A program made the position numbers and the translations under genes. A stretch of DNA of 64,000 nucleotides from Stutzerimonas urumqiensis (GTDB lineage: Bacteria; Pseudomonadota; Gammaproteobacteria; Pseudomonadales; Pseudomonadaceae). This document shows, in pieces, positions 7,928-44,979 of the stretch. Positions within the stretch are counted from its first letter, which is position 1; each line of letters opens with the position of its first letter. The stretch is from NCBI RefSeq assembly GCF_003640395.1, contig NZ_RBZQ01000009.1:62001-126000 (forward strand), written 5' to 3'. Under the pieces are notes generated by a model. That model worked only from the letters and a program-made list of their open reading frames with translations, made no database searches and was not told the DNA's origin.

Positions 7928-8458
7928 ATGAGCGCCACTACCCCCATCCCGGAGGCCGACGGCATCGCCGCCTGCCCCGTCAGCCTCGAACTCAACGGCC
8001 AGCGTCGACACCTCGACATCGAACCCTGGACCACGCTGCTCGACCTCCTGCGGGATCGCCTGGCCATGACCGGCACCAAGAAGGGCTGCGACCACGGCCA
8101 ATGCGGCGCGTGCACCGTGCTGGTCGATGGCAAGCGGGTGAACGCCTGCCTGACCCTCGCGGTGATGTGCGACGGCAAGCAGGTCACCACCATCGAGGGG
8201 CTGGCACGCGGTGACGAATTGCACCCGATCCAGCAGGCCTTCATCGACCATGACGCCTTCCAGTGCGGCTACTGCACGCCGGGGCAGATCTGCTCGGCGG
8301 TCGGCATGGTGAATGAAGGGCGCGCGCGGAGTCGCGACGACATCCGCGAGCAGATGAGTGGCAACATCTGTCGTTGCGGCGCCTACCCGCACATCCTCGA
8401 GGCGATCGAAGACGCCCTGCCGGCGGCCAGGGCCTGGGCCGGGGAGGGCGAGCGATGA
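7928..8458 (+). CDS. paoA: Aldehyde oxidoreductase [2Fe-2S] subunit
   Basis: A 176-residue small subunit of a three-subunit molybdenum hydroxylase. The plant-ferredoxin-type cluster is held by GCDHGQCGAC with a further Cys in VNACL, and the second [2Fe-2S] cluster by CGYCTPGQ and NICRCGAYP. It passes electrons from the molybdenum centre to FAD. Unlike E. coli PaoA there is no clear Tat leader in the 20-residue N-terminal extension, so a cytoplasmic location is possible. It overlaps paoB by ATGA. Confidence 0.9.
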   Translation: MSATTPIPEADGIAACPVSLELNGQRRHLDIEPWTTLLDLLRDRLAMTGTKKGCDHGQCGACTVLVDGKRVNACLTLAVMCDGKQVTTIEGLARGDELHPIQQAFIDHDAFQCGYCTPGQICSAVGMVNEGRARSRDDIREQMSGNICRCGAYPHILEAIEDALPAARAWAGEGER

Positions 8459-9441
8459 ATCCGTTCAGCTACGCACGGCCTGCCTCGGTCGACGACGCGG
8501 TGAAGCTCGCCGGGCCGGACGCGCGCTTCATCGCCGGCGGCACCAACCTGCTGGACCTGATGAAGGAAAACGTCCTGCGGCCCCGGCAACTGATCGACAT
8601 CACCCACCTGCCGCTGCGCGAGGTGGCGGCGAGTGGCAACGGCGGCCTGCGCGTCGGGGCGCTGGTCAGCAACGCCGACCTCGCCTGGCACCCGGAGGTC
8701 GAGGCGCGCTATCCGCTGTTGTCGCAGGCCATTCTGGCCGGCGCCTCGGGCCAGCTTCGCAACATGGCGACCACCGGCGGCAACCTGCTGCAACGCACCC
8801 GTTGCTGGTACTTCTACGACACCGGCACGCCCTGCAACAAACGCGAGCCGGGCTCGGGCTGCGGCGCGCGCGATGGCGTCAACCGGATGAACGCCATCCT
8901 CGGGGCCAGCGACGCCTGCGTCGCGGTGCACCCGTCGGACATGTGCGTGGCGCTGGCCGCGCTGAAAGCCACCGTGCACGTGCAGGGACGGCAGGGTGCC
9001 CGCGAGATCGCCTTCGCCGACTTCCATCGCCTGCCGGGCGACGAGCCGCAGCGCGACAACGTGCTCGCCGACGATGAGTTGATCACCGCCATCGAGCTGC
9101 CCGCCGAAGGCTTCGCCACGCATTACCGCTACCTCAAGGTGCGCGAGCGTGCGTCCTACGCCTTCGCCCTGGTGTCCGTCGCCGTCGCGCTGGAGATGGA
9201 CGGTGACACCGTTCGCCAGGCGCACGTCGCCCTCGGTGGGGTCGCCCATAAGCCCTGGCGGCGCGAAGAGGCCGAGGCCCTGCTGGTGGGCCAGCGCGCC
9301 GATGACACCCATTTCGCCGCGGCGGCCGACGCGCTCCTCGCCGGCGCGCAGCCCCTCGCCTACAACGCCTTCAAGGTCGAACTCGCCCGCCGCGCCATCA
9401 TCCGTGCGCTCGACGAGGCAGCCAGAGGAGTGACCCGATGA
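8455..9441 (+). CDS. paoB: Aldehyde oxidoreductase FAD-binding subunit with extra [4Fe-4S] segment
   Basis: A 328-residue medium subunit of the xanthine oxidase family. FAD-binding motifs are AGGTNLLDLM (about 27-36) and the TTGGNLLQRTRC region (about 106-117). The stretch from RCWYFYDTG through CNKREPGSGCGA to HPSDMC supplies four cysteines, the insertion that binds a [4Fe-4S] cluster in PaoB and separates it from ordinary XDH FAD subunits. The ATG at 8455 overlaps the paoA stop; the frame is open further upstream only as a shadow. Its stop overlaps the start of paoC. Confidence 0.92.
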   Translation: MNPFSYARPASVDDAVKLAGPDARFIAGGTNLLDLMKENVLRPRQLIDITHLPLREVAASGNGGLRVGALVSNADLAWHPEVEARYPLLSQAILAGASGQLRNMATTGGNLLQRTRCWYFYDTGTPCNKREPGSGCGARDGVNRMNAILGASDACVAVHPSDMCVALAALKATVHVQGRQGAREIAFADFHRLPGDEPQRDNVLADDELITAIELPAEGFATHYRYLKVRERASYAFALVSVAVALEMDGDTVRQAHVALGGVAHKPWRREEAEALLVGQRADDTHFAAAADALLAGAQPLAYNAFKVELARRAIIRALDEAARGVTR

Positions 9442-11636
9442 ACAGCACCTCACCCATCGGCCAGCCGCTCCCACGGGTCGACGGCCGCCTCAAGGTCACC
9501 GGACAGGCGAAGTACGCCGCCGAATTCGAGATTCCCGGGCTGCTGCACGGCAGCGTGGTCAACAGCACCATCGCCCGCGGTCGCGTCAGGCGCATCGATA
9601 CCACCGCGGCCGAGGCCGTCGCCGGCGTGGTGCTGGTGCTGACCCACGAAAATCGCCCGCCGGTCGCCAGTTACGACGAGCCCTACCAGGACGACGATGC
9701 CGCCGACGGCTCGCCGTTCCGCCCGCTGTACAACGATCGGGTGCTCTACAGCGGCCAGCCGCTGGCGCTGGTCGTCGCCGAAAGCCTGGAGCTGGCGCGC
9801 TACGCCGGCTCGCTGGTGCGCATCGAATATGACGTCGAGCCGCACCAGACCGACCTCGCCGCGGTGCGCGAGCAGGCCCACCCCGCGCCGGAAGAGGTCC
9901 CCTCGCGCGGCGACTTCGAGGCGGCGTACCGTGGCGCGCCGTTGCAGATCGACCATGAGTACGGCACACCCATCGAGCATCACAACCCGATGGAGCCGCA
10001 CGCCTCGACGGTGCACTACCAGCCGGGCGACGAGCTGATCATCCATGACAAGACCCAGGGCGTGCAGAACTGCATGCGCTATGTCGAAGGGGTGTTCGGC
10101 CTCGAGGGCAAGGTGCAGGTGCATTCGCCCTTCGTCGGCGGCGCCTTCGGTTCGGGGCTGCGGCCGCAGTATCAGTTGCCGCTGGCGGTGATGGCCGCAC
10201 TCAAGCTCAAGCGCTCGGTGCGGGTGGTCCTCAAGCGGCAGCAGATGTTCACCTTCGGCTACCGGCCGCGCACGTTGCAGCGCCTGGCCATCGGCTTCTC
10301 GCCGAACGGCCGGCTGGAGGCGCTGCACCACGGTTCGCTCGGGCAGACGTCGCGCTTCGAGGACTTCACCGAGCATGAGGTCGAGTGGTCCGGGGCGCTG
10401 TATGCCTGTGACAACGTCCAGCTCGAGTACAGGCTCGGATCGCTCGACGTCTACACGCCGATCGACATGCGCGCCCCCGGCGCGGCGATCGGCGTCTATG
10501 CGCTGGAAGCGGCGATGGACGAGGTGGCCTACGCGGCGGCGATCGACCCGCTGCAACTGCGGCTGCGCAACTACACCGAGATCAATGGCAACCAGGGCAA
10601 ACCCTATTCGAGCAAGGAGCTGTGCGCCTGCTACGAGCAGGGCGCCGAGCGTTTCGGCTGGTCGCGCAGGCCGCTCGAAGCGCGCAGCATGCGCGACGGG
10701 CATGAGCTGATCGGCTGGGGCATGGCGACCGGCGTCTGGGAGGCGATGCAGATGCCCGCCAGTGCCAAGGCATGCCTGGCGGCGGACGGTCGGCTGATCG
10801 TCAGCAGCGCCACGGCCGACATCGGCACCGGCACCTACACGGTGATGACGCAGATTGCGGCCAGCGCCCTCGGCCTGCCGATGGACCGCGTGGAGTTTCG
10901 CCTGGGTGACTCGCGTTTCGCCCAGGCACCGCTCGAAGGCGGCTCGGCAACGGTCTCGTCGGTCGGCAGCGCGGTGCACCAGGCCTGCGTCGGCCTGCGG
11001 GAGAAGATCCTCGACGCGGCCCAGCAGTCGCCGGCCTCGCCCTTCACCGGGGCCAGCCTCGACGATGTGGCGTTCGAAGACGGCGAACTGGTGCTCAAGC
11101 GCGAGCCGGCGCGGCGCGTGCCGCTGACGCAGCTCATCCAGACCAGCGGCACCCTCGAGGCCGAGGCGAGCGTCAAGCCCGGCGACGAGCGCGAGAAGTA
11201 CGCCACCGGCACGCACTCGGCGATCTTCGTCGAAGTCCGCGTGGACGAGGCCCTCGGCACGGTGCGCGTGACCCGCGTGGTCAGCGCCGTCGCCGCCGGC
11301 AAGGTAATCAATCCGAAGACGGCTGCCAGCCAGATCCTGGGCGGCGTGGTCTGGGGCATCGGCATGGCCCTGCACGAGGAAACCTGGACCGACCACCGGC
11401 TGGGTCGCTACATGAACCACAACCTGGCCGAGTATCACGTTCCGGTGAACGCCGACATCCATGACATCGACGTGTTCTTCGTCGAGGAGCAAGACAGCGT
11501 GGTGAACGACCTTGGCTCCAAGGGCGTCGGCGAGATCGGCATCGTCGGCGTGGCCGCGGCGGTGGCTAACGCCATCTACCACGCCACCGGCAAGCGCGTG
11601 CGGGACCTGCCGATCACGCCGGACAAGCTGCTCTGA
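9438..11636 (+). CDS. paoC: Aldehyde oxidoreductase molybdenum-binding subunit
   Basis: A 732-residue large subunit of the molybdenum hydroxylase family. Visible hallmarks are the N-terminal RVDGRLKVTGQAKYAAE, the cofactor-binding GGAFGSG (about 235-241) and, near the C-terminus, KGVGEIG, which holds the catalytic glutamate. Length and subunit order match E. coli PaoC, which oxidises aromatic aldehydes and carries molybdopterin cytosine dinucleotide. With xdhC and the MocA-like gene upstream, the five genes form a self-contained enzyme-plus-maturation unit. The physiological substrate cannot be read from sequence. Confidence 0.92.
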   Translation: MNSTSPIGQPLPRVDGRLKVTGQAKYAAEFEIPGLLHGSVVNSTIARGRVRRIDTTAAEAVAGVVLVLTHENRPPVASYDEPYQDDDAADGSPFRPLYNDRVLYSGQPLALVVAESLELARYAGSLVRIEYDVEPHQTDLAAVREQAHPAPEEVPSRGDFEAAYRGAPLQIDHEYGTPIEHHNPMEPHASTVHYQPGDELIIHDKTQGVQNCMRYVEGVFGLEGKVQVHSPFVGGAFGSGLRPQYQLPLAVMAALKLKRSVRVVLKRQQMFTFGYRPRTLQRLAIGFSPNGRLEALHHGSLGQTSRFEDFTEHEVEWSGALYACDNVQLEYRLGSLDVYTPIDMRAPGAAIGVYALEAAMDEVAYAAAIDPLQLRLRNYTEINGNQGKPYSSKELCACYEQGAERFGWSRRPLEARSMRDGHELIGWGMATGVWEAMQMPASAKACLAADGRLIVSSATADIGTGTYTVMTQIAASALGLPMDRVEFRLGDSRFAQAPLEGGSATVSSVGSAVHQACVGLREKILDAAQQSPASPFTGASLDDVAFEDGELVLKREPARRVPLTQLIQTSGTLEAEASVKPGDEREKYATGTHSAIFVEVRVDEALGTVRVTRVVSAVAAGKVINPKTAASQILGGVVWGIGMALHEETWTDHRLGRYMNHNLAEYHVPVNADIHDIDVFFVEEQDSVVNDLGSKGVGEIGIVGVAAAVANAIYHATGKRVRDLPITPDKLL

Positions 11637-11963
11637 ATGCCGGGTAGCGCGGGAAGGCTGGACGACAAGCGTAGGGTGGATGACGGCACAGCCTCATCCA
11701 CGCGTCCGGTCGGACCCGCACCAAGCTCGCCATGGCCACCGGGCGCCACCGCGGGCCACAGTGGAAAACGCTCCGCGGTTTTCCACCCTACGGCCCTAAA
11801 GCGAGCACCGTAGGGTGGACGACGGCGAAGCCTCGTCCACGTGTCGCCAGGACCGTAGGGCGGATTCAGGAGCGAAGCGAACAATCCGCCGGGGCGGTGC
11901 ACAAACGAAGCCCCGCGCCGAATACCGGTGCATTGCTGCGCGAATGCACCCTGCGGATGCGCA
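11637..11963. repeat. Spacer filled with short palindromic repeats (families A and B)
   Basis: No gene is seen. Three copies of a hairpin repeat (family B: GTAGGGTGGA, about 6 variable bases, GCGAAGCCT-like loop, TCCAC) lie at about 11671-11704, 11757-11793 (inverted) and 11809-11842. They are followed at 11854-11957 by one copy of family A, GTAGGGCGGATT then GGAGCGAAGCGAACAATCC, with a trailing GTGCATTG...GAATGCACC hairpin. Related copies recur elsewhere in this window. The spacer lies between paoC and the convergent MFS gene. Confidence 0.85.
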
Positions 11964-16967: not shown

Positions 16968-18059
16968 ATGGCACTCAACAGCATCGAAGAACTCGTCGAA
17001 GACATCCGCCAGGGCAAGATGGTCATCCTCATGGATGACGAGGACCGCGAGAACGAAGGCGACCTGATCATGGCCTCCGAATGCGTGCAGGCCGAGCACA
17101 TCAACTTCATGGCGCGCTTCGCCCGCGGCCTGATCTGCATGCCGATGACGCGCGAGCGTTGCGAGACGCTCAAGCTGCCGCTCATGGCGCCGCGCAACGG
17201 TTCGGGCTTCGGCACCAAGTTCACGGTCTCGATCGAAGCGGCCGAAGGCGTCACCACCGGCATCTCCGCCGCCGACCGCGCGCGGACCGTGCAGGTCGCC
17301 GCCGCCAAGTTCGCCAAGGCCGACGACATCGTCAGTCCCGGCCACATCTTCCCGCTGATGGCGCAGGCCGGTGGCGTGCTGGCCCGCGCCGGCCATACCG
17401 AAGCGGCGTGCGACCTGGCGCGCATGGCCGGCTTCGAGCCGACCGGCGTGATCTGCGAAATCATGAACGACGACGGCACCATGGCCCGCCGGCCGGAGCT
17501 GGAAGTCTTTGCGCAGGAGCACGGCATCAAGATCGGCACCATCGCCGACCTGATCCACTACCGGCTGATCCACGAACACACCATCGAGCGCGTCGCCGAG
17601 CAGCCGCTGGATACCGAGCTCGGCCAGTTCAGCCTGGTGACCTACCGGGATTCGGTCGAGGGCGACGTGCACATGGCGCTGGTGCTCGGCCAGATCCGCA
17701 AGGACGAGCCGACGCTGGTGCGCGTCCACAATATGGACCCGCTGCGCGACCTGCTGATGGTGCGCCAGGCCGGACGCTGGAGCCTGCGCGCGGCGATGGC
17801 CAAGGTGGCCGAGGCCGGCAGTGGCGTGGTGCTGCTGCTGGGTCATCCGCTGGACAGCGAGGACCTGCTCGCCCACGTCCGCGAAGGCAACGCCGGGCAG
17901 CCGTCGAAGACGCCGAGCACCTACAGCACGGTGGGCGCCGGTTCGCAGATCCTGCGCGACCTGGGCGTTCGTCGGATGCGGCTGATGAGTTCGCCGGTGC
18001 GCTTCAACGCAATATCCGGCTTCGATCTCGAGGTTGTAGAATACCTGCCCGCTGAATGA
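16968..18059 (+). CDS. ribBA: 3,4-dihydroxy-2-butanone 4-phosphate synthase with degenerate GTP cyclohydrolase II-like domain
   Basis: A 363-residue fusion. Residues 1-205 are a complete RibB domain: DDEDRENEGDL (about 21-31) binds metal and substrate, and RRPELEVFAQEH and HEHTIER complete the site. Residues 206-363 align with GTP cyclohydrolase II, but the zinc-binding cysteines are gone: where ribA in this window has HSECLTGD and [10 protein letters not shown], this protein has HNMDPLRD and VRQAGRWSLR. The C-terminal half should therefore not catalyse the cyclohydrolase step, which the separate ribA performs. It lies 11 nt after ribE under FMN riboswitch control. Confidence 0.94.
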   Translation: MALNSIEELVEDIRQGKMVILMDDEDRENEGDLIMASECVQAEHINFMARFARGLICMPMTRERCETLKLPLMAPRNGSGFGTKFTVSIEAAEGVTTGISAADRARTVQVAAAKFAKADDIVSPGHIFPLMAQAGGVLARAGHTEAACDLARMAGFEPTGVICEIMNDDGTMARRPELEVFAQEHGIKIGTIADLIHYRLIHEHTIERVAEQPLDTELGQFSLVTYRDSVEGDVHMALVLGQIRKDEPTLVRVHNMDPLRDLLMVRQAGRWSLRAAMAKVAEAGSGVVLLLGHPLDSEDLLAHVREGNAGQPSKTPSTYSTVGAGSQILRDLGVRRMRLMSSPVRFNAISGFDLEVVEYLPAE

Positions 18060-18232
18060 CGGCGGCCGGTGCAAGGGGTGTCTCGACCGTTATCGAGACG
18101 CCCTGAAGGTCGGGCAGGACGAGGATCGCCGCGCGGTCATCGCCCACCCGACCGTCCCGCAAGGACGGGGACGACGATTTCTTTCGGTGCGCACCGCGCG
18201 CCGGCTCTTTAAACGCATTACGAGACCCGCTC

Positions 18233-18709
18233 ATGTCCCTGAAGACCATCGAAGGTACCTTCATCGCCCCCAAGGGCAAGTTCGCCCTGGTCGTTGGCCG
18301 CTTCAACAGCTTCGTGGTTGAAAGCCTGGTCAGCGGCGCCGTCGACACCCTGGTTCGCCACGGCATCGGCGAAGACAACATCACCATCATCCGCGCGCCG
18401 GGTGCATTCGAAATCCCGCTGGTCTCGCAGAAGGTCGCTCAGCAGGGCGAGTACGACGCCATCATCGCGCTGGGCGCGGTCATCCGTGGCGGCACCCCGC
18501 ACTTCGAATACGTCGCGGGCGAGTGCACCAAGGGCCTGGCGCAGGTCTCCATGGAGTTCGGCGTGCCGGTCGCCTTTGGCGTGCTGACCGTCGATTCCAT
18601 CGAGCAGGCGATCGAGCGCTCCGGCACCAAGGCCGGCAACAAGGGCGCCGAAGCCGCGCTTTCCGCCCTGGAAATGGTCAGCCTGCTGGCGCAGTTGGAG
18701 GCCAAGTGA
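18233..18709 (+). CDS. ribH: 6,7-dimethyl-8-ribityllumazine synthase
   Basis: A 158-residue lumazine synthase, which condenses the RibB product with 5-amino-6-ribitylaminouracil. Family motifs are [17 protein letters not shown] and [16 protein letters not shown] with the catalytic histidine, then FGVLTVD. Length is normal for the icosahedral enzyme. A 173-bp gap separates it from ribBA without an obvious terminator. Its stop overlaps the GTG start of nusB (GTGA), coupling riboflavin synthesis to nusB translation, as in other pseudomonads. Confidence 0.97.
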
Positions 18710-19191
18710 GCCTGAATCGCGACGACAGCCCGGACGCCGAACCGGCCAAGCCCGCCAAGGGCAAGATCGCCATGCGCCGCGTCGCCCGCGGCCTGGCCAT
18801 GCAGGCGCTCTACCAGTGGCAGATGGCGGGCCAGTCGCTGAACGAGATCGAAGCGCAGTTTCGCGTCGACAACGATTTCGCCGGCGTCGACGGGCCGTAC
18901 TTCCATGAGCTGCTGACCGGCGTGGCGCATGACAAGACCGACATCGACGGCGCCATCGCCCCGCATCTCGATCGTCCGCTGGACGAGCTCGATCCGGTCG
19001 AACTGGCCATCCTGCGGCTGTCGACCTACGAGCTGAAGCATCGCCTCGACGTACCGTACCGGGTCGTGATCAACGAAGGCATCGAGCTGGCCAAGGTCTA
19101 CGGCGCCACCGACGGGCACAAGTTCGTCAACGGCGTCCTGGATAAGCTGGCCCCGCAGCTGCGCAGCGCCGAAACGCGCGAACGGCGCTGA
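18706..19191 (+). CDS. nusB: Transcription antitermination protein NusB
   Basis: A 161-residue all-helical protein that binds boxA RNA with S10 (NusE) in rRNA antitermination. [17 protein letters not shown] (about residues 25-41) is the conserved first helix, and [13 protein letters not shown] and [10 protein letters not shown] lie near the C-terminus. The GTG at 18706 overlaps the ribH stop and gives a typical length. The first 20 residues are a Lys/Ala/Pro-rich extension. Confidence 0.95.
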
Positions 19192-19204
19192 CCGACACGC
19201 CGGC

Positions 19205-20158
19205 ATGGGTGAGTTCGAACTGATCCGCCGCTACTTCGCCACCGCGTCCTGTGCCAGGGCCGGTGGCGAAGTCGTATTGGGCATCGGCGACGACTGCGCG
19301 CTGCTGGCGGTGCCGGCGGGCGAGGTGCTGGCGATTTCGACCGATACCCTGGTGGCCGGCGTGCATTTCCCCGAGGGCTGCGATCCGTTCCTGCTTGGCC
19401 AGCGTGCACTGGCGGTCTCGGCCAGCGATCTGGCGGCGATGGGGGCGGCACCGATCGGCTTCACCTTGGCGTTGACGCTGCCGGCGGTCGAGCCGGTATG
19501 GCTCGAAAGGTTCGCCCGTGGACTCGAGCGCATGGCGAGTCGCTGCGCATTGCGGTTGGTGGGCGGCGACACAACGCGCGGGCCGCTGACGCTGACCCTG
19601 ACCGTGTTCGGCCGCGTACCCGAGGGCGCCGCGCTCCGGCGCGATGGCGCACGTCCCGGCGATCTGGTCTGCGTCGGTGGCGGGCCGCTGGGCGACGCCG
19701 CCGGTGCGTTGCCGCTGGTGCTGGGCCAGCGGAGCGCCGCACCCGCTGTCGCCAAGCCGCTGCTGGATCAGTACTGGCAGCCGCTGCCGCAGCTTGCGCT
19801 CGGCCAGGCCTTGCGCGGCAGGGCGAGCGCGGCACTGGACATATCCGATGGCTTGCTCGCCGATTGCGGGCACCTGGCGACCGCTTCCGGCGTTGCATTG
19901 TTCATCGACGCGCCGCGGGTGCCGCGCTCGGCCGAACTGGTCGACTTCATGGGCGAGGAGGCCGCATTCGCCTGCGCGCTCGCCGGTGGCGACGACTACC
20001 GGCTGGCCTTCACCCTGCCGCGCCAGCACCTGGCCGCGCTGGCCTCGGACTGGCCGATCACGGTCATTGGCGAGGTGCGGGACGGCGCGGGTGTTCACCT
20101 GCTCGATGCGCAGGGCCGGGCGATGGAGCCGCCGCGGCGTGGCTACACCCATTTCTGA
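19205..20158 (+). CDS. thiL: Thiamine-monophosphate kinase
   Basis: A 317-residue kinase of the PurM/ThiL fold that phosphorylates thiamine monophosphate to the active diphosphate. FELIRRYF at the N-terminus, GIGDDCALL for metal/ATP, STDTLVAGVHF, SASDLAAMGA and VGGDTTRG are standard ThiL motifs; DISDGLLADCGHL and GGDDY occur in the second domain. It starts 14 nt after nusB, in the conserved nusB-thiL-pgpA order. Confidence 0.97.
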   Translation: MGEFELIRRYFATASCARAGGEVVLGIGDDCALLAVPAGEVLAISTDTLVAGVHFPEGCDPFLLGQRALAVSASDLAAMGAAPIGFTLALTLPAVEPVWLERFARGLERMASRCALRLVGGDTTRGPLTLTLTVFGRVPEGAALRRDGARPGDLVCVGGGPLGDAAGALPLVLGQRSAAPAVAKPLLDQYWQPLPQLALGQALRGRASAALDISDGLLADCGHLATASGVALFIDAPRVPRSAELVDFMGEEAAFACALAGGDDYRLAFTLPRQHLAALASDWPITVIGEVRDGAGVHLLDAQGRAMEPPRRGYTHF

Positions 20159-37512: not shown

Positions 37513-38015
37513 GGGATTGGAAGACGCAAGAATCCGCATATGGGCGGGCACGGCACCGTGCGTGCCGCCCGGATCGCCCGCAAGCGGGCTCCTACAGGGG
37601 GCGCTGCTGATCTGCGAACGAACGGATTTCAGCCGTAGGGCGGATTTAGGAGCGAAGCGAACAATCCGCCAGAAGGCCGCGCCTGATGCGAAACCCCGGT
37701 GCATTGCTTCGCGAATGCACCTTACGGACCGCACGCCACGATCTTCGCTCCGACCGGCATTGGCCGTGCAGTTGGCTTGCCGGCGATGCTCGCCGGATCG
37801 CCCGCAAGCGGGCTCCTACAGGGCCCTGCGAATCTCCGAACGAACGGATCTCAGCCTGTAGGGCGGATTCCGGAGCGAAGCGAACAATCCGTCAATGCCC
37901 GACTCCGTGGGTTCCCATCAAGATGCATTGCCTCGCGAATGCACCCTACGCACGACCATCCGCGCCGATCGTGGGATTCAGCCCCGGCCATGCTTTCGTA
38001 GGCCAGGGCATCGCA
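37513..38015. repeat. Repeat-filled spacer between usp and ppa (families A and C)
   Basis: Two copies of family A (GTAGGGCGGATT then GGAGCGAAGCGAACAATCC, trailing GCATTG...GAATGCACC hairpin) lie at about 37634-37727 and 37857-37950. Each is preceded by an inverted copy of family C (GATCGCCCGCAAGCGGGCTCCTACAGG-like, at about 37568-37600 and 37797-37822). Short frames in this stretch cross the repeats and are not genes. Confidence 0.85.
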
Positions 38016-38044
38016 AACAAAAAAGCCGGCTTGTGGCCGGCTTT
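38012..38044 (-). terminator. Rho-independent terminator of ppa
   Basis: On the minus strand AAAGCCGGC, a 5-base loop and GCCGGCTTT form a strong 9-bp stem followed by a T-run. It lies 18 nt beyond the ppa stop codon. Confidence 0.92.
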
Positions 38045-38061
38045 CAGGGGGTGGTGTCGGC

Positions 38062-38589
38062 TTACTTCTGGTAAGCCGCAACCGCCTTGGTGATCTCGGC
38101 GCGGGCGGCGTCGGCGTTGCCCCAGCCTTCGACCTTCACCCACTTGCCCTTTTCAAGGTCCTTGTAGTTCTCGAAGAAGTGCTTGATCTGCTCGAGCAGC
38201 AGGGCGGGCAGGTCGGTGTATTCCTTCACGTCGACGTACAGCTGGCTCAGCTTGTCATGCGGAACGGCGATGAGCTTGGCGTCGCCGCCGGCTTCGTCGG
38301 TCATGTGCAGGACGCCGACCGGGCGGGCGCGGATGACCGAGCCCGGCGCAACCGGGTAGGGGGTCACGACCAGCACGTCGAGCGGGTCGCCGTCGTCGGC
38401 CAGGGTGTTGGGGATGTAGCCGTAGTTGGCCGGGTAGAACATCGGGGTGGCCATGAAGCGGTCGACGAACAGGCAGTCGCTGTCCTTGTCGATTTCGTAC
38501 TTGATCGGCGCGTGGTTGGCCGGAATCTCGATCGCGACGTAGATGTCGTTGGGCAGGTCTTTGCCAGCCGGGATCTTGCTGTAGCTCAT
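38062..38589 (-). CDS. ppa: Inorganic pyrophosphatase
   Basis: A 175-residue family I soluble pyrophosphatase, which hydrolyses PPi to drive biosynthesis. The signature DGDPLDVLV (about 66-74) with the metal-binding aspartates is intact, together with [14 protein letters not shown] and YGYIPNT. Length is that of the E. coli enzyme. Single gene with its own terminator. Confidence 0.97.
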
Positions 38590-38729
38590 GGTCGATGGCT
38601 CCGTTATCGGCCGATGCGCGGCCAGGGGGCGAAAAAGCGGCCGCGATTATAGGCCGAACGTGCCGACCGATACCACGCTACCGATATAGCCCATTGGTAG
38701 CGGTCGGGCCGGCATTCGACGGCGTTGGG

Positions 38730-39554
38730 TCAGCCCGGTTCCTTCGCGTCGCGGTATTCGGGATGGTTGGCCTGCAGATGCCGCAGCCGGGCGAACGGAT
38801 CCTGGCGGTAGAACAGGCCGAGCTGCCGGTACACCGCCGGGAAGGCGTCGTGCAGCAGGTCTGGCGCGGTGAAGAAATACTCGCTGGTGACGGCGAAGAA
38901 TTCGGCCGGGTCTTCGGCCGCGTAGGGGTCGATCGGCGTCTCGGCAGCGGGGTCGGCGTCCAGTTGCGCGTTGAGCGCGTCGTAGGCCGGCTGCATCGCC
39001 TCGGCCCAGTCGGCGATGCGCATGTCGCGGTGCAAGGGCGGCAGGCCATTGGCGTCGCCGTTGAGCATGTCCAGCTTGTGGGCGAGTTCGTGGATGATCA
39101 GGTTGTAGCCTTCCCAGCCGCCGCTCTGTTCGATGCCCGGACGCGCCAGGATTACCGGCCCCTGCTGCCAGGCTTCGCCGCTGTGCTCGGCGTCCCATTC
39201 GTGGACGACGCCGGAGTCGGGGTCGCGGTGCTTCTGCGGGCTGGCGAAATCATCGGGGTAGATCACCAATTCGTGAAAGCCGCCGTACCAGTCCAGGTCC
39301 GGCAGTTCCAGCAGCGGCAGTTGCGCCTGGGCGGCCAGCCGCAGGCGCGCGACGGTGTCGAGCGATACGGTCGGCAGGCAGGTGAGTCGCTTGGCGTGCA
39401 GGAACAGCACGCAACGGTCGCGCAGCCGATCGAGCGCTTCGGGCTCCAGCCCGTCGAGCAGCGGCAGGCTGTCGATCACCTGCTGCCAGAGCGCGGTGTC
39501 GATCGGGAATCGGGCAAGAAGGCGCCGGCGTCGCCAAGCGCGATACGACCACAT
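38730..39554 (-). CDS. mtfA: MtfA-type zinc peptidase (Mlc titration factor)
   Basis: A 274-residue protein of the MtfA (DUF980) family. The gluzincin motif HELAHKLDM starts at about residue 155, with the third ligand Glu in EFFAVTSEYFF further on; WDAEHSGEAWQQGPVILA is also conserved. In E. coli MtfA binds the glucose repressor Mlc and has aminopeptidase activity; the target in pseudomonads is unknown. The ATG at 39554 has GGAG about 9 nt upstream. The frame stays open far upstream, antisense to eddA, but that extension is a high-GC shadow. It is divergent from eddA. Confidence 0.92.
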   Translation of the reverse strand: MWSYRAWRRRRLLARFPIDTALWQQVIDSLPLLDGLEPEALDRLRDRCVLFLHAKRLTCLPTVSLDTVARLRLAAQAQLPLLELPDLDWYGGFHELVIYPDDFASPQKHRDPDSGVVHEWDAEHSGEAWQQGPVILARPGIEQSGGWEGYNLIIHELAHKLDMLNGDANGLPPLHRDMRIADWAEAMQPAYDALNAQLDADPAAETPIDPYAAEDPAEFFAVTSEYFFTAPDLLHDAFPAVYRQLGLFYRQDPFARLRHLQANHPEYRDAKEPG

Positions 39555-39646
39555 ACAGAGGCTCCAGGGGCGGGTGGCCACCATAAGCGGGACGCCCGAG
39601 ACGGGCAAGCGGGTGGCTGGCGGGTGCTCGTCGGCTTTCTGTCGCA

Positions 39647-39664
39647 GAGTCATATTTCTGTCAA
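39647..39664 (+). promoter_or_regulatory. Candidate Pho box upstream of eddA
   Basis: GAGTCAT-ATTT-CTGTCAA matches the PhoB-binding consensus CTGTCAT-N4-CTGTCAT at 11 of 14 half-site positions with the correct 11-bp repeat spacing. It lies 58 nt upstream of the eddA ATG. A PhoB site here agrees with the phosphate-scavenging nature of the two genes that follow. Confidence 0.65.
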
Positions 39665-39722
39665 TCGACTGGCGTACACCAGTGACGTTCGCGCACGACG
39701 CACCCATCACCAGGAGAGCCGC

Positions 39723-41267
39723 ATGAGCCAGCCGGACCGCAATCGTCGTTTGTTGGTACAGGGAATTGGTGCCGGCCTCGCATTGCCGGCGCTTGGCGTA
39801 GCGCCGGCGATCATCGCCTCGCCGAACGCTCGGCCACGGGTAATGGACGGCGTGCAATCCGGCGACGTCAGCGGCAGCCGGGCGATCGTCTGGAGTCGCT
39901 GCGATCGGCCGGCCCGGCTCGTCGTCGAATGGGACACCCGCAGTAGCTTCGCCAATCCGCGACGCATCCAGTCGCCGGTGACCACCGATGCGCTGGACTT
40001 CACGGCCAAGGTCGATCTGCGCGGCCTGCCCGCCGATCAGGCCGTCTTCTACCGCGCCCGCTTCGAAGACGCCCGCGACGGCAGCCTCAGCGAGCCGTGG
40101 TTCGGCCACCTGCGCAGCGCTCCGCGTCGCGACCGCGATATCCGCTTCGTCTGGGGCGGCGACACCTGCGGCCAGGGCTACGGCATCAACCCTGACATCG
40201 GCGGCATGCGCATCTACGAAGCCATGCGGCGCCGGCAACCGGATTTCTTTTTGCACAGCGGCGACGTCATCTATGCCGACGGCCCGATCCCCGAGCAGGT
40301 GACCGCCGAGGACGGCCGCATCTGGCGCAACCTCGTCACCGAAGCCAAGAGCAAGGTGGCCGAGACACTGGACGAATACCGCGGTAACTACCGCTACAAC
40401 CTGATGGACGAGAACCTGCGGCGCTTCAACGCCGAAGTCCCGCAGATCTGGCAGTGGGACGATCACGAGGTGACCAACAACTGGTCCCCTTCGAAGGTCC
40501 TCGATGACCGTTACCGGGTAAAGGACATCGACGTGCTGGTCCGCCGTGCGCGGCAGGCTTACCTCGAATACGCGCCCATGCGGCTGACGCCCCGTGACGC
40601 GCTCGGTCGCGTGTACCGCAAGATCGCCTACGGGCTGCAGCTCGACGTGTTCGTACTGGACATGCGCAGCTACCGCGGCCCGAACACCGCCAACCTTCAG
40701 GCCGAGCCAAGCGCCGAGACGGCCTTCCTGGGCCAGCAGCAGCTGGACTGGCTCAAGCGCGAACTGCGCAGCTCGCAAGCGACCTGGAAGGTGATCGCCG
40801 CCGACATGCCGATCGGCCTGCACGTGCCGGATGGCCCGCGCTGGGAGGCCATCGCCAATGGCAACGATGGCCCGGCGCTGGGCCGCGAACTGGAGATCGC
40901 CGACCTGCTGGCCTTCATCCAGCGGGCGCAGGTACGCAATACCGTCTGGCTGACGGCCGATGTTCACTACTGCGCCGCGCACCATTACCATCCCAGCCGC
41001 GCCGCCTTCCAGCGATTCGATCCGTTCTGGGAGTTCGTCGCCGGGCCGCTCAACGCCGGCAGTTTCGGGCCGAACGCGCTGGACGCGACCTTCGGTCCGG
41101 AAGTGGTTTTCCAGAAGGCACCGCTCACGCCTAATAGCTCGCCGTTCGCCGGCTTCCAGTTTTTTGGCGAGGTCGAGATCGAATCGCGCGGCGCGCTCAC
41201 CGTCTCGCTGCGCGACATCGACGGCAACGCCGTCTTCACCCAGACCCTCGAACCCCAACTGGCCTGA
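39723..41267 (+). CDS. eddA: PhoD-like secreted alkaline phosphatase/phosphodiesterase
   Basis: A 514-residue exported PhoD-family phosphatase. The N-terminus NRRLLVQGIGAGLALPALG contains twin arginines and a hydrophobic core, suggesting Tat export. Metal and active-site residues are in VWGGDTCGQGYG, FFLHSGDVIYADGP, WQWDDHEVTNNW and LTADVHYCAAHHY. The closest described relative by arrangement is P. aeruginosa EddA, co-expressed with the nuclease EddB under phosphate limitation. The two genes here are 21 nt apart. Start ATG 39723 follows GGAG; the longer frame upstream is a shadow of mtfA. Confidence 0.9.
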   Translation: MSQPDRNRRLLVQGIGAGLALPALGVAPAIIASPNARPRVMDGVQSGDVSGSRAIVWSRCDRPARLVVEWDTRSSFANPRRIQSPVTTDALDFTAKVDLRGLPADQAVFYRARFEDARDGSLSEPWFGHLRSAPRRDRDIRFVWGGDTCGQGYGINPDIGGMRIYEAMRRRQPDFFLHSGDVIYADGPIPEQVTAEDGRIWRNLVTEAKSKVAETLDEYRGNYRYNLMDENLRRFNAEVPQIWQWDDHEVTNNWSPSKVLDDRYRVKDIDVLVRRARQAYLEYAPMRLTPRDALGRVYRKIAYGLQLDVFVLDMRSYRGPNTANLQAEPSAETAFLGQQQLDWLKRELRSSQATWKVIAADMPIGLHVPDGPRWEAIANGNDGPALGRELEIADLLAFIQRAQVRNTVWLTADVHYCAAHHYHPSRAAFQRFDPFWEFVAGPLNAGSFGPNALDATFGPEVVFQKAPLTPNSSPFAGFQFFGEVEIESRGALTVSLRDIDGNAVFTQTLEPQLA

Positions 41268-41288
41268 GCCGCTGCCAAGGAGCGACAC

Positions 41289-43628
41289 ATGCGTGCGTCA
41301 TCTTTTCGTCGTCACCCGCTGGGCCTGGCGCTGGCCGCAACCGTAGCCGCCAGCGCCGCGCCGCTGGCGATGGCCGACCTGCTGATCTCCGAATACGTCG
41401 AGGGCAGCGGCAACAACAAGGCGCTGGAGTTCTACAACACGGGGGACGCCCCGCTGGCGCTCGACGGGCATCAGGTCGAGTTCTACTTCAACGGCGCCCG
41501 CGAGCCGGGTCGGCGAATCGAGCTGACCGGCAGCCTGGCGGCCGGTGCGGTGCATGTGCTGGTGCATGGCGAAGCCGACCCGGCGCTGCGCGCGCTGGGT
41601 GCGCAGGTCGCCGGTGGCAGCTGGTACAACGGCGACGACGCGATCCTCCTGCGCGGGCCGGACGGGACGGTGGTCGATAGCCTCGGCCAGCTGGGCATCG
41701 ATCCTGGCAGCACCTGGGGCGGCGGCAACACCCAGACGGCGGATCGCACCCTGGTGCGGCTGACAACGGTGACGCGAGGCGATCGCGAGCCGGCCGACGG
41801 CTTCGACCCGGCCGCCGAGTGGCAGGGGTTTGCGCGCGACACCTTCGCCTCGCTCGGCGGGTACGGGCCGGGCAGTGGCGAGCCCGGCGGTGGCGGCGCG
41901 GCGAGCGAGCGCAGCATCGCCGAGGTCCAGGGACGTGAGGAAACCAGCCCGCTGGCCAATCAGGTGGTGATCGTCGAAGGCATCGTGGTCGGCGACTTTC
42001 AGGGCGAAGACCAGTTGCGCGGCTTCTTCATTCAGTCTTCGGCGGGCGATGCGGACAGCGACGCCCTGACGTCCGAGGGGTTGTTCATCTACGGCGGCCA
42101 GACCGACGTGCAGGTCGGCGATCGCGTCCGCGTGCAGGGCCGGGTCGAGGAGTTCAACGGACTCACCGAACTGACCGCCCCGCAGGTCAGCGTGCTGGCG
42201 CGTGGCCAGGCGTTGCCGGCTGCCGTACCGGTTCGTCTGCCACTGGCGTCGTCCGATGCGCTGGAGCGGCTCGAAGGCATGCGCGTCGCATCGCCGACGC
42301 CGCTGATCGTGAGCGAGGGCTACAACCTCGGCCGCTACGGCGAGCTGGTGCTGACCTCCGGCGAGCGGTTGTGGATTCCGTCCCATCGTGTCGCGCCGGG
42401 GGCTGCGGCGCAGGCGCTGCAGGCGCAGAACGACCTTGATCGTCTTGTCCTCGATGACGGCCTGAGCGGGCAGAACCCCGATCCCGTGCGCTATCCGGCG
42501 CCGCAGCTCAGCGCCTACGCGACGGTGCGGGTGGGCGACCGCGTCGAGGGTGTGCAGGGTGTGCTGCATTACCTGGCCGGCAGTTACCGCATCCAGCCCA
42601 CCGTGCAGCCGACCATCACCCAGGCCAACCCGCGCCCGGCTGCGCCAGAGACCATCGACGGGCGGCTGCGGGTCGCCAGTTTCAACGTGCTCAACTATTT
42701 CAATGGCGACGGGCAGGGCGGCGGCTTCCCGACTTCGCGCGGCGCCGACAGCCTCGAGGAATTCCAGCGCCAGCGCGAGAAAGTCGTCGCCGCGATCCTG
42801 GGGGCGGACGCGCACATCATCGGCCTGATGGAAATCGAGAACGATGGCTACGGCGCGGACAGCGCCATCGCCGACCTGGTCACCGCATTGAACCGCTCGG
42901 CGGTCGGCCGGCAGCGTTATGCCTATGTCGACCCGCGGCAGGATCGGCTGGGCACCGACGAGATCGCCGTCGGCCTGATCTACCGGGAAGATGTCGTCCG
43001 GCCGCACAAGGCTGCGGCCGTGCTGGACGCCTCGGTCGATCCGCGCTTCGACGACACTCGCAACCGACCGGCACTGGCGCAGACCTTCCGCGAGCGGCAC
43101 AGCGGCGAGCGCCTGACCGTGGCGGTCAACCACCTCAAATCCAAGGGCTCGTCCTGCGAAGACCGGGGCGACCCGGATCGCGGAGACGGCCAAGGCAACT
43201 GCAACCTGACCCGTGCCCTTGCCGCTCAGGCGCTGGTCGACTGGCTGGCCACCGACCCCACCCGCGCGAAGGACCCGGACCGCCTGATCATCGGCGACCT
43301 CAACGCCTATGCGAAGGAAGACCCGATCACCGTCATCCGTGCGGCCGGCTATGTCGACCTGCTGGCACGCTTCGTCGGCGACTCGGCCTACTCCTACGTG
43401 TTCGAGGGGCAGTCCGGTTACCTCGACCACGCGCTGGCCAGCCCGACCCTCGCCGGGCAGATACGCGGCGCCACCGAGTGGCACATCAACGCCGACGAGC
43501 CCCGCGCGCTGGACTATAACCTCGAGTTCAAGACGCCAAGACAGCAGAGCGGCTTCTACAGCCAGCAGCCGTACCGGGCCTCGGATCACGATCCATTGGT
43601 GATTGGCATCGACCTGAACCGTCGCTGA
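41289..43628 (+). CDS. eddB: Extracellular endonuclease of the ExeM/NucH family
   Basis: A 779-residue secreted nuclease: signal peptide about 1-29 (ending PLAMA), a lamin-tail domain (about 29-150: LISEYVEGSGNNKALEFYN), an OB-fold-like nucleic-acid-binding region (about 205-345) and a C-terminal endonuclease/exonuclease/phosphatase domain (about 455-779) with FNVLNYFNGDG, LMEIEND, NHLKSKG, GDLNAYAKEDP and ASDHDPLVIG. This is the domain plan of ExeM and EddB, which degrade extracellular DNA for phosphate. It forms an operon with eddA. Confidence 0.92.
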   Translation: MRASSFRRHPLGLALAATVAASAAPLAMADLLISEYVEGSGNNKALEFYNTGDAPLALDGHQVEFYFNGAREPGRRIELTGSLAAGAVHVLVHGEADPALRALGAQVAGGSWYNGDDAILLRGPDGTVVDSLGQLGIDPGSTWGGGNTQTADRTLVRLTTVTRGDREPADGFDPAAEWQGFARDTFASLGGYGPGSGEPGGGGAASERSIAEVQGREETSPLANQVVIVEGIVVGDFQGEDQLRGFFIQSSAGDADSDALTSEGLFIYGGQTDVQVGDRVRVQGRVEEFNGLTELTAPQVSVLARGQALPAAVPVRLPLASSDALERLEGMRVASPTPLIVSEGYNLGRYGELVLTSGERLWIPSHRVAPGAAAQALQAQNDLDRLVLDDGLSGQNPDPVRYPAPQLSAYATVRVGDRVEGVQGVLHYLAGSYRIQPTVQPTITQANPRPAAPETIDGRLRVASFNVLNYFNGDGQGGGFPTSRGADSLEEFQRQREKVVAAILGADAHIIGLMEIENDGYGADSAIADLVTALNRSAVGRQRYAYVDPRQDRLGTDEIAVGLIYREDVVRPHKAAAVLDASVDPRFDDTRNRPALAQTFRERHSGERLTVAVNHLKSKGSSCEDRGDPDRGDGQGNCNLTRALAAQALVDWLATDPTRAKDPDRLIIGDLNAYAKEDPITVIRAAGYVDLLARFVGDSAYSYVFEGQSGYLDHALASPTLAGQIRGATEWHINADEPRALDYNLEFKTPRQQSGFYSQQPYRASDHDPLVIGIDLNRR

Positions 43629-44385
43629 AACTCGTTCGGCGGACGGCTGCACATCCCTGTAGGAGCCCGCTTGCGGGCGATCCGGCAAGCATCGCCGGCA
43701 GGCTTGCAGCATGTAGGGTGAGCTTCAGCCCACCAGCCCATCCATGTTTCCGATGGGCTGAAGCCCACCCTACAACGCTGAAGCCCACAACAACGCGAGG
43801 CCTGAGCTGAATCCGCCCAATCGGCGCGGGCGGTGCCTTGGCGTAGGGCGCATTCGCGAAGCCATGCACCTTGGGACGCACGCAGCCGAGTATTGGCGGA
43901 TTGTTCGCTTCGCTCCTGAATCCGCCCTACGGCCTGACCGGCCATCAAGAACCCGTTCGGCGATTGGTCGCGCACCCCTGTCGGAGCCCGCTTGCGCGCG
44001 ATCCGTGAGCATCACCGGCAAGCTTGCAGCGTGTAGGTGGGCTTCAGCCCACCAGCCCATTCATGTTTCCGGTGGGCTGAAGCCCACCCTACAACGCGAG
44101 GCCGGAGTTGAATCCGCCCAATCAGCGTGGGCGGTGCCTTGGCGTAGGGCGCATCACGAAGCCATGCACCTTGGGACGCACGCAGTCGGGTACTGACGGA
44201 TTGTTCGCTTCGCTCCTGAATCCGCCCTACGGCCTGGCCCACCATCAAAAACCCGCTCGGCGATTGGCGCGCACCCCTGTAGGAGCCCGCTTGCGGGCGA
44301 TCCGGCGAGCATCGCCGGCAAGCGGCACCGGCCAGCGCAACCCGCCGAAAGCGGGGCGGCGCCAGGCCAAGCGATGAGTGCCTAA
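43629..44385. repeat. Tandem ~310-bp repeat block between eddB and pilA
   Basis: Two near-identical units, about 43630-43949 and 43950-44249, and a partial third (44250 to about 44325) occur in direct tandem. Each unit contains ACCCGTTCGGCGATTGG, a family C element (GTAGGAGCCCGCTTGCG), a family D hairpin (GGGCTTCAGCCCACC with matching GGTGGGCTGAAGCCC, at about 43712-43773 and 44034-44092) and an inverted family A element (ending GGATTGTTCGCTTCGCTCC, 43841-43932 and 44142-44232). No coding sequence is seen. Confidence 0.9.
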
Positions 44386-44417
44386 AACAAAAACCCCGCC
44401 GATTAGGGCGGGGTTTG
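44386..44417 (-). terminator. Rho-independent terminator of pilA
   Basis: AAACCCCGCC at 44391-44400 and GGCGGGGTTT at 44407-44416 form a 10-bp stem with a 6-base loop; on the minus strand it is followed by a T-rich run. It lies 65 nt past the pilA stop. Confidence 0.92.
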
Positions 44418-44481
44418 TTTGCGCCAATTAGGCGATATGGAATCGCGTGGATTCATCGTCTATAAGGCGTCGAAACAGTCA

Positions 44482-44979
44482 TTAACGGCAGCTGGCCGGA
44501 AGATACTTGGCTTCAATACCGCCCGTGGCTGCAGCTTTACATTTCCAACCACGGATAGGTTTGATGGTTGCGCTAGCAAAGTCATTAGCAGCCGAAGCGG
44601 TTGTCAATCCTGCGTCGCTGTAGGGAATAAAATCGACCTTCGTATTAGTGCTGCCGAGTTGAGAAATATTTCGTGCCTCAACGGTGATTACACCCTCTTT
44701 GCTAGTGGTGATCTTATTAACGTACTGCGAGACTGGACCGGTAGCGTCTTCACCACATCCAAAGCTATTTGCAGCTGTGGGAGCGGCAGCAAACCCGGTC
44801 TGCGATGCCTCCGAAATTGCGGTGCGGCAAGCCGAGGCTGCAAGTACGACTTCCGATACTTTCGCCCGAGCGGTGTAATCCTGATAAGCCGGCAGCGCCA
44901 CAGCAGCCAAAATACCGATAATCGCCACAACGATCATCAATTCAATCAGGGTAAAACCTTTTTGCATCTGAGCTTTCAT
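44482..44979 (-). CDS. pilA: Type IV major pilin precursor PilA
   Basis: A 165-residue prepilin: short basic leader MKAQMQKG, cleavage by PilD before [18 protein letters not shown], Glu5 of the mature protein present, then a globular domain. The C-terminal disulfide loop runs from [10 protein letters not shown] to ASCR, and another cysteine pair is in SACRTA and FGCGED. It polymerises into the type IV pilus used for twitching and DNA uptake. GGAG lies 6 nt upstream of the ATG at 44979. Base composition is visibly more AT-rich than neighbouring genes, suggesting allele exchange. It is divergent from pilBCD. Confidence 0.95.

Follow-up and report, generated by a model that had tools for sequence, protein, structure and literature searches.

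A tandem composite of three REP families between eddB and pilA in Stutzerimonas urumqiensis, probably a hybrid BIME/REP cluster

The interval between the eddB-like and pilA-like genes of Stutzerimonas urumqiensis holds an array of three palindromic repeat families, here called A, B and C, arranged in the order A-B-C-A-B-C-A at positions 43628-44323 of the window, by which is meant the whole 64,000-nucleotide stretch analyzed (G000:C18:62001-126000; the genome, G000, comprises 4.07 Mb in 18 contigs). Two head-to-tail units are followed by a partial third. The array is very probably a hybrid BIME/REP cluster, real and somewhat elaborate but ordinary and not evidently a pilin device, of a kind already in print as far as the available portions of four papers go (PMC2817692, PMC3116915, PMC3733652, PMC3686654). 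Among the literature titles and abstract openings listed, none dealt with this array or with composite REP arrays in Stutzerimonas.

The tandem array is real and lies far above chance level. Self-comparison of 43630-44023 with 43951-44323 gave 85% identity (E about 1e-126), and TRF scored the array at 920 with a period of 300 and 1.8 copies. The initial annotation had described a tandemly duplicated composite of several palindromic repeat types at 43630-44325, placing it correctly to within a few bases, and had proposed a base-by-base alignment of the units; that alignment (MAFFT) shows units 1 and 2 to be 89.7% identical over 300 aligned columns, spacers counted in, with the third copy partial. 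Between the two units, identity is 70% in the stretch preceding A, 87% in A, 88% in the 8-nt A-B spacer, 95% in B, 92% in the B-C spacer, 94% in C and 79% in the C-A spacer. Because the spacers are themselves homologous between units, the block was duplicated as a whole, without independent insertions rebuilding it, and ordered, repeated REP modules with homologous spacers are what is expected of a BIME. Unit 1 begins directly at eddB, its first base (43628) being the last base of the stop codon. For the single strand of 43630-44420 the computed folding energy is -223 kcal/mol (z -8.2, from 20 shuffles). Rfam matches within the array (mir-3923, MIR5565 and others) fell mainly on the B hairpin, scored far under the gathering thresholds and were set aside.

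In favor of an assembly artefact, G000 is a draft genome, and two of its contigs share a 20-kb stretch at 99.995% identity. Units 1 and 2, however, disagree at 31 aligned positions (26 transitions, 5 transversions) and by indels, so they do not represent a single stretch assembled twice; the array is moreover internal to a contig of 200,687 bases. An artefact is extremely improbable and the assembly of the array seems sound, although a further, identical unit may have been collapsed.

Table 1. Features of the array, its surroundings and the RAYT gene (window positions unless a contig is given)
Feature	Position	Strand	Basis or remark
Related composite C-A-C-A, inverted, far side of ppa-mtfA-eddA-eddB	37563..37949	-	self-comparison
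eddB-like ExeM/NucH family extracellular nuclease gene	41289..43628	+	NF033681, 676 bits
Unit 1 (A1-B1-C1 and spacers), 323 bp	43628..43950	+	self-comparison, MAFFT
A1	43657..43703	+	GTAG-headed REP (GTAGGAGCCCGCTTGCGGGCGA), then a second small palindrome
B1	43712..43774	+	REPIN-like: two GTAGGGTGGGCTTCAGCCCACC-type REPs in inverted orientation, forming a long hairpin (z -7.6)
C1	43842..43931	+	REPIN-like; GTAGGGYGCATTCGCGAAGC.. and ..GGATTGTTCGCTTCGCTCCTGAATCCGCCCTAC flanking a variable middle
Unit 2 (A2-B2-C2 and spacers), 300 bp	43951..44250	+	self-comparison, MAFFT
A2	43978..44023	+	degenerate A (GTCGGAGC..GCGCGC)
B2	44034..44092	+	
C2	44144..44230	+	
Partial unit 3 (pre-A segment and A3 only)	44251..44323	+	self-comparison, MAFFT
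A3	44277..44323	+	intact A
Terminator-like hairpin of pilA, between pilA and array	44391..44416	-	weak: 3 sites in region vs 2.0 expected from shuffles
pilA-like type IV pilin gene	44482..44979	-	
RAYT gene	C16:108123-108590		between fruA and prfC (L173:16655-17684)

All three families are GTAG-headed palindromes, A being a single REP and B and C inverted pairs that resemble REPINs. The GTAG head precedes the palindrome in A, in B and in both halves of C, with the degenerate A2 reading GTCG. The arms of B1 are 95% complementary, as expected of a REPIN, and its hairpin and that of B2 fold at z -7.6 and -8.5; C1 and C2 also form end-to-end folds (z -2.6 and -2.2), while A1 by itself folds no better than shuffles (z -0.7) and A3 reaches z -2.4. 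Copies of C are highly conserved. Of the 65 profile hits, 38 full-length copies were aligned, with the copies in stretch L175 and all partial ones dropped; in this alignment both halves of C are conserved and related to each other without being identical, and they enclose a variable middle.

The same elements recur throughout the genome. Exact patterns recovered 223 A-type cores, a figure that takes in several stem variants, and 22 B cores, the reversed control pattern returning 0 in each case. C gave 65 profile hits in a 417-kb sample that includes one 20-kb stretch in duplicate, and a 304-bp query against the genome produced 68 listed matches, the majority over C. This sample is made up of the window and 20 stretches picked for having C hits, 416,659 bases in all with the 20-kb stretch doubled, and is biased accordingly. 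In the 397 kb that are left when the duplicate L175 is omitted, cores lay outside called genes in 94/99 cases for A, 7/7 for B, 30/31 for the 5' end of C and 26/26 distinct cores for its 3' end, called coding sequence making up 78% of that sample; the calls come from our own rough caller, which missed pilA and overextended eddA, and the flank orientations derived from them do not enter the argument. With a head and palindrome, high copy number and an extragenic location, the elements have the properties of GTAG-type REPs. Blastn searches of plasmids and phages did not recover the array, and the C-end pattern had 0 matches in viral contigs. A lone C element lies at 11855-11953 of the window, with further GTAG palindromes in its downstream flank. 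The duplicated stretch itself (L174, G000:C14:357201-377200, and L175, G000:C11:429951-449950) covers 19,994 bases at 99.995% identity and is either a large duplication or assembly redundancy.

Among the 55 other genomes of the genus, the closest has 82% PilB identity (first 199 residues), and none seems to belong to the same species. When the whole array was used as query, 51/56 genus genomes (G000 included) had a match at E <= 0.001, and nearly all matches listed outside G000 were to B-type or short A pieces. With at most 16 candidates per genome scored, full-length C was found in G000 alone of the 56 genomes and 26-nt matches occurred in 3 others; among the matches listed, there was one C-like match in G064 (76% over about 80 nt).

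A Y1_Tnp profile search of the genome returned one match at E <= 0.001, a REP-associated tyrosine transposase (RAYT; NCBIfam NF047646, 153 bits against a cut-off of 80). A-type REPs stand on both sides of its gene, as an inverted pair toward prfC and as a 169-bp tandem array of 2.3 copies toward fruA. Flanking of a RAYT by its REPs was seen for A only; for B and C the search at this threshold gave no cognate transposase. A RAYT 65% identical to this one occupies the same place beside prfC in G014 and G027, flanked by another A-type stem, CCAG/CTGG. We infer that A is mobilized by the RAYT of G000 or by its ancestor. The RAYT gene lies between fruA and prfC here, and 4/5 of the Stutzerimonas relatives read have eddA-eddB beside prfC. 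Two relatives carry a RAYT-like match downstream of pilA, at L192:6321-6659 (32% identity to the RAYT of G000) and L191:5540-5989 (28%).

The initial annotation considered a tandemly duplicated composite of repeats unusual, a judgement that does not hold for this genome: in the biased 417-kb sample, TRF gave 15 rows with a period of at least 60, corresponding to 14 distinct arrays, 7 of which contain C, and like arrays have been published, as far as the available parts of PMC3733652, PMC3116915 and PMC2817692 go. A related composite lies ~6 kb away in inverted orientation, across ppa-mtfA-eddA-eddB, and in it two repeated parts enclose 63 unrepeated nucleotides. The order B-C-A recurs at C12:410k, and A-C-A-C-A is found at C13:506.6k. 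Twenty-six hand-picked REP-rich regions comprised 16 head-to-tail arrays with a segment of at least 20 nt occurring n+1 times, 9 in which two copies were split by unrepeated bases, and 1 without a 60-nt self-match.

Common spacers suggest that some of these modules travel as blocks. A C-spacer-A module with a conserved spacer is present at C12:410k, C13:506.6k and C18:99.6k, with two C copies at each. Spacers adjacent to C were compared with REP cores masked. The comparison took in the 43 (downstream) and 40 (upstream) C copies whose spacer reached 20 nt, paired them where they lay on other contigs or over 2 kb from each other, and set its threshold at the best of 8000 shuffled pairs. Above that threshold were 15/886 downstream and 61/764 upstream pairs, or 8/750 and 50/658 when only pairs on different contigs are counted; these figures replace unmasked counts (96/1405 and 175/1063), which were inflated by neighboring REPs. 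The upstream signal comes largely from one cluster of 12 copies (58/61 pairs) that belongs to a longer mosaic and not to the A-B-C module, while the downstream signal forms several small clusters, one of which joins the three loci just named. In the masked comparison the C-A spacer of the pilA array forms a cluster of its own and matches no other locus, and its B-C spacer has a single match, in the array 6 kb away (37.9 kb in the window). It is likely that some composite modules spread whole between loci, this being read from few loci of a biased sample; for the pilA array itself, whole spread is not proven. A mosaic of up to about 1.5 kb occurs in several copies on another stretch (L182:351-1851, 8100-9900 and 17980-19700) and combines A arrays and one C with a further palindrome (GTAGGGTGGAAAACC..GTTTTCCACC) and a stretch of non-REP sequence; partial copies are found in L172, L174, L176, L178, L184 and L186. 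At L182:8907-8970 there is a short run of a AAAAGCAG-like repeated unit shortly 5' of a C element.

These observations frame the origin that we favor for the array as a hybrid BIME/REP cluster. Members of the A, B and C families would have gathered after eddB as an A-B-C module beside a second A, and the A-B-C stretch between the A copies would then have been duplicated head to tail to give A-B-C-A-B-C-A, through slippage or unequal exchange involving the A copies on either side, or through RAYT-driven amplification. The units would since have drifted apart to about 90% identity. The A-bearing segment that ends the pilA array is present in n+1 copies, an outcome that each of the three mechanisms predicts.

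That RAYT-driven rolling-circle amplification in particular made the array and seeded modules elsewhere, as in the model set out in the available part of PMC2817692, as against slippage or RecA exchange, is possible but doubtful. The genome does have a RAYT, whose gene adjoins a tandem A array, and the conserved C-spacer-A module at three loci is what such seeding would leave. On the other hand, B and C have no RAYT that could be found here, slippage accounts equally well for the tandem step, the C-A spacer of the pilA array is without a match at other loci, and S. maltophilia arrays are reported, in the portion of PMC2817692 available, to lack homology among inter-REP segments. The n+1 rule, by which the same REP stands at both ends of an array, holds for the pilA array but is not enriched over the sample: the n+1 segment carries an A-type core in 11/16 head-to-tail arrays against 8.0 expected, and as a rule for all tandem arrays it is not supported there.

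The array also stands at a point where gene order differs from that of relatives. In G000 the joints are eddB-array-pilA and cysNC-eutC, and the arrangement in relatives is another (window 37563-44321; L219:3776-8065; L220-L226; L189-L194). There, cysD-cysNC lies within about 3 kb of pilA (6/6 read) and eutC on one side of mtfA (7/7 read), the two being neighbors in G066, G059, G016 and G058; other sequence separates them in G027 and G036, as does eddA in G018, where eddB was not found. On the other side of mtfA, ppa is present in 6/7 relatives and was not found in the G058 stretch. The eddB gene neighbors prfC, in some cases with an intervening RAYT, in 4/5 Stutzerimonas and 4/4 Pseudomonas loci read. 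This distribution indicates that eddB was joined to pilA by an exchange of neighbors through inversion or translocation, and the eddB-pilA joint is a breakpoint in G000 that is seen in none of the relatives read. At the reciprocal cysNC-eutC joint, where the gap is about 55-60 bp (L219; 59 bp from the cysNC match to the eutC match), no REP of the four types searched was found in the surrounding 16 kb. Because the reciprocal joint is without such REPs, causation of the rearrangement by REPs is unproven; the array lies on the breakpoint and may have caused, followed or merely survived the event.

It had been suggested in the initial annotation that the array is a hot spot of recombination or expansion tied to the variable pilin gene, where frequent recombination would drive change. 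The position of the array on a rearrangement joint unseen in the relatives read bears this out in part, and inverted related arrays flank ppa-mtfA-eddA-eddB. The link to pilA fares worse: A and B cores (exact pattern) occur in 0/6 pilA stretches of relatives (11.6 kb each), although the pilA flanks vary; units at 90% identity speak against recent expansion or homogenization; similar arrays are found at other loci; and a REP-to-REP crossover should have left one REP at each joint, whereas the reciprocal one has none of the four types. A pilin-linked hot spot is accordingly very unlikely. A wider reading, in which the copied unit of this genome would be a composite multi-family module with its spacers, amplified in tandem on arrival at distant loci as RAYT rolling-circle action predicts, the eddB-pilA array being one landing that served as or marked the rearrangement joint, is also unlikely, if less so.

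The array could alternatively be a selected regulatory block, its REPs protecting the 3' end of eddB mRNA, ending transcription or binding gyrase between convergent genes. The first REP begins about 30 bp past the eddB stop codon, eddB and pilA are convergent, and the B hairpins are strong; roles in gyrase binding and mRNA protection are stated for E. coli REPs in the available portions of PMC2817692, PMC3116915, PMC3733652 and PMC3686654, and by analogy might extend to these. The terminator-like hairpin of pilA stands between pilA and the array, about 70 bp from the array end, which would place the array outside a normally terminated pilA transcript. Against selection for such a role, the plus strand at the eddB end has no terminator-like site and A2 is degenerate; A-type cores occur in the eddB flanks of 3/5 Stutzerimonas (G014, G016, G027) and 0/4 Pseudomonas, and the B core in 0/9 relatives' eddB flanks, A and B patterns having been searched. 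We consider a selected block improbable. As an ordinary hybrid cluster, the array would consist mainly of mobile DNA that has settled, and is tolerated, in the interval between the convergent genes, and its contribution to protecting or ending the eddB transcript would be the most that it does.

Comparison with known systems is made here with what the available portions of the respective papers describe. The BIMEs of Stenotrophomonas maltophilia consist of modules arranged head to tail, and some are hybrids that combine REPs belonging to two RAYTs (Nunvar et al., 2010; PMC2817692). The present array resembles these hybrid BIMEs in its head-to-tail modules, in the modified REPs inside them and in a RAYT gene directly by an array; it differs in having three GTAG families, with B and C as inverted pairs. 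BIMEs have also been described with alternating REPs, whereas all three A copies here point one way. In P. fluorescens SBW25, tandem REPIN clusters include their flanks (Bertels and Rainey, 2011; PMC3116915), and the likeness extends to clusters by RAYTs and to the mixed GI-GIII arrays there, although the unit here combines REPIN-like pairs of two families with a REP of a third. The same source, in the part available, reports no REPINs from its P. stutzeri genome, whereas an inverted A pair lies beside the RAYT in this Stutzerimonas. The GTAG REP superfamily (PMC3733652, 2013), with its clusters reiterated in tandem together with flanking DNA, offers a further parallel in the terminal GTAG, the palindromic stem and the hybrid GTAG dimers of S. 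maltophilia; C may belong to one of its 24 GTAG families or to none of them. Finally, some inter-REP spacers are common to distant arrays here, whereas the available portion of PMC2817692 reports no inter-REP homology in S. maltophilia. A genome in which module spacers are still recognizable makes copying between loci traceable, and offers a handle on how BIMEs form and spread.
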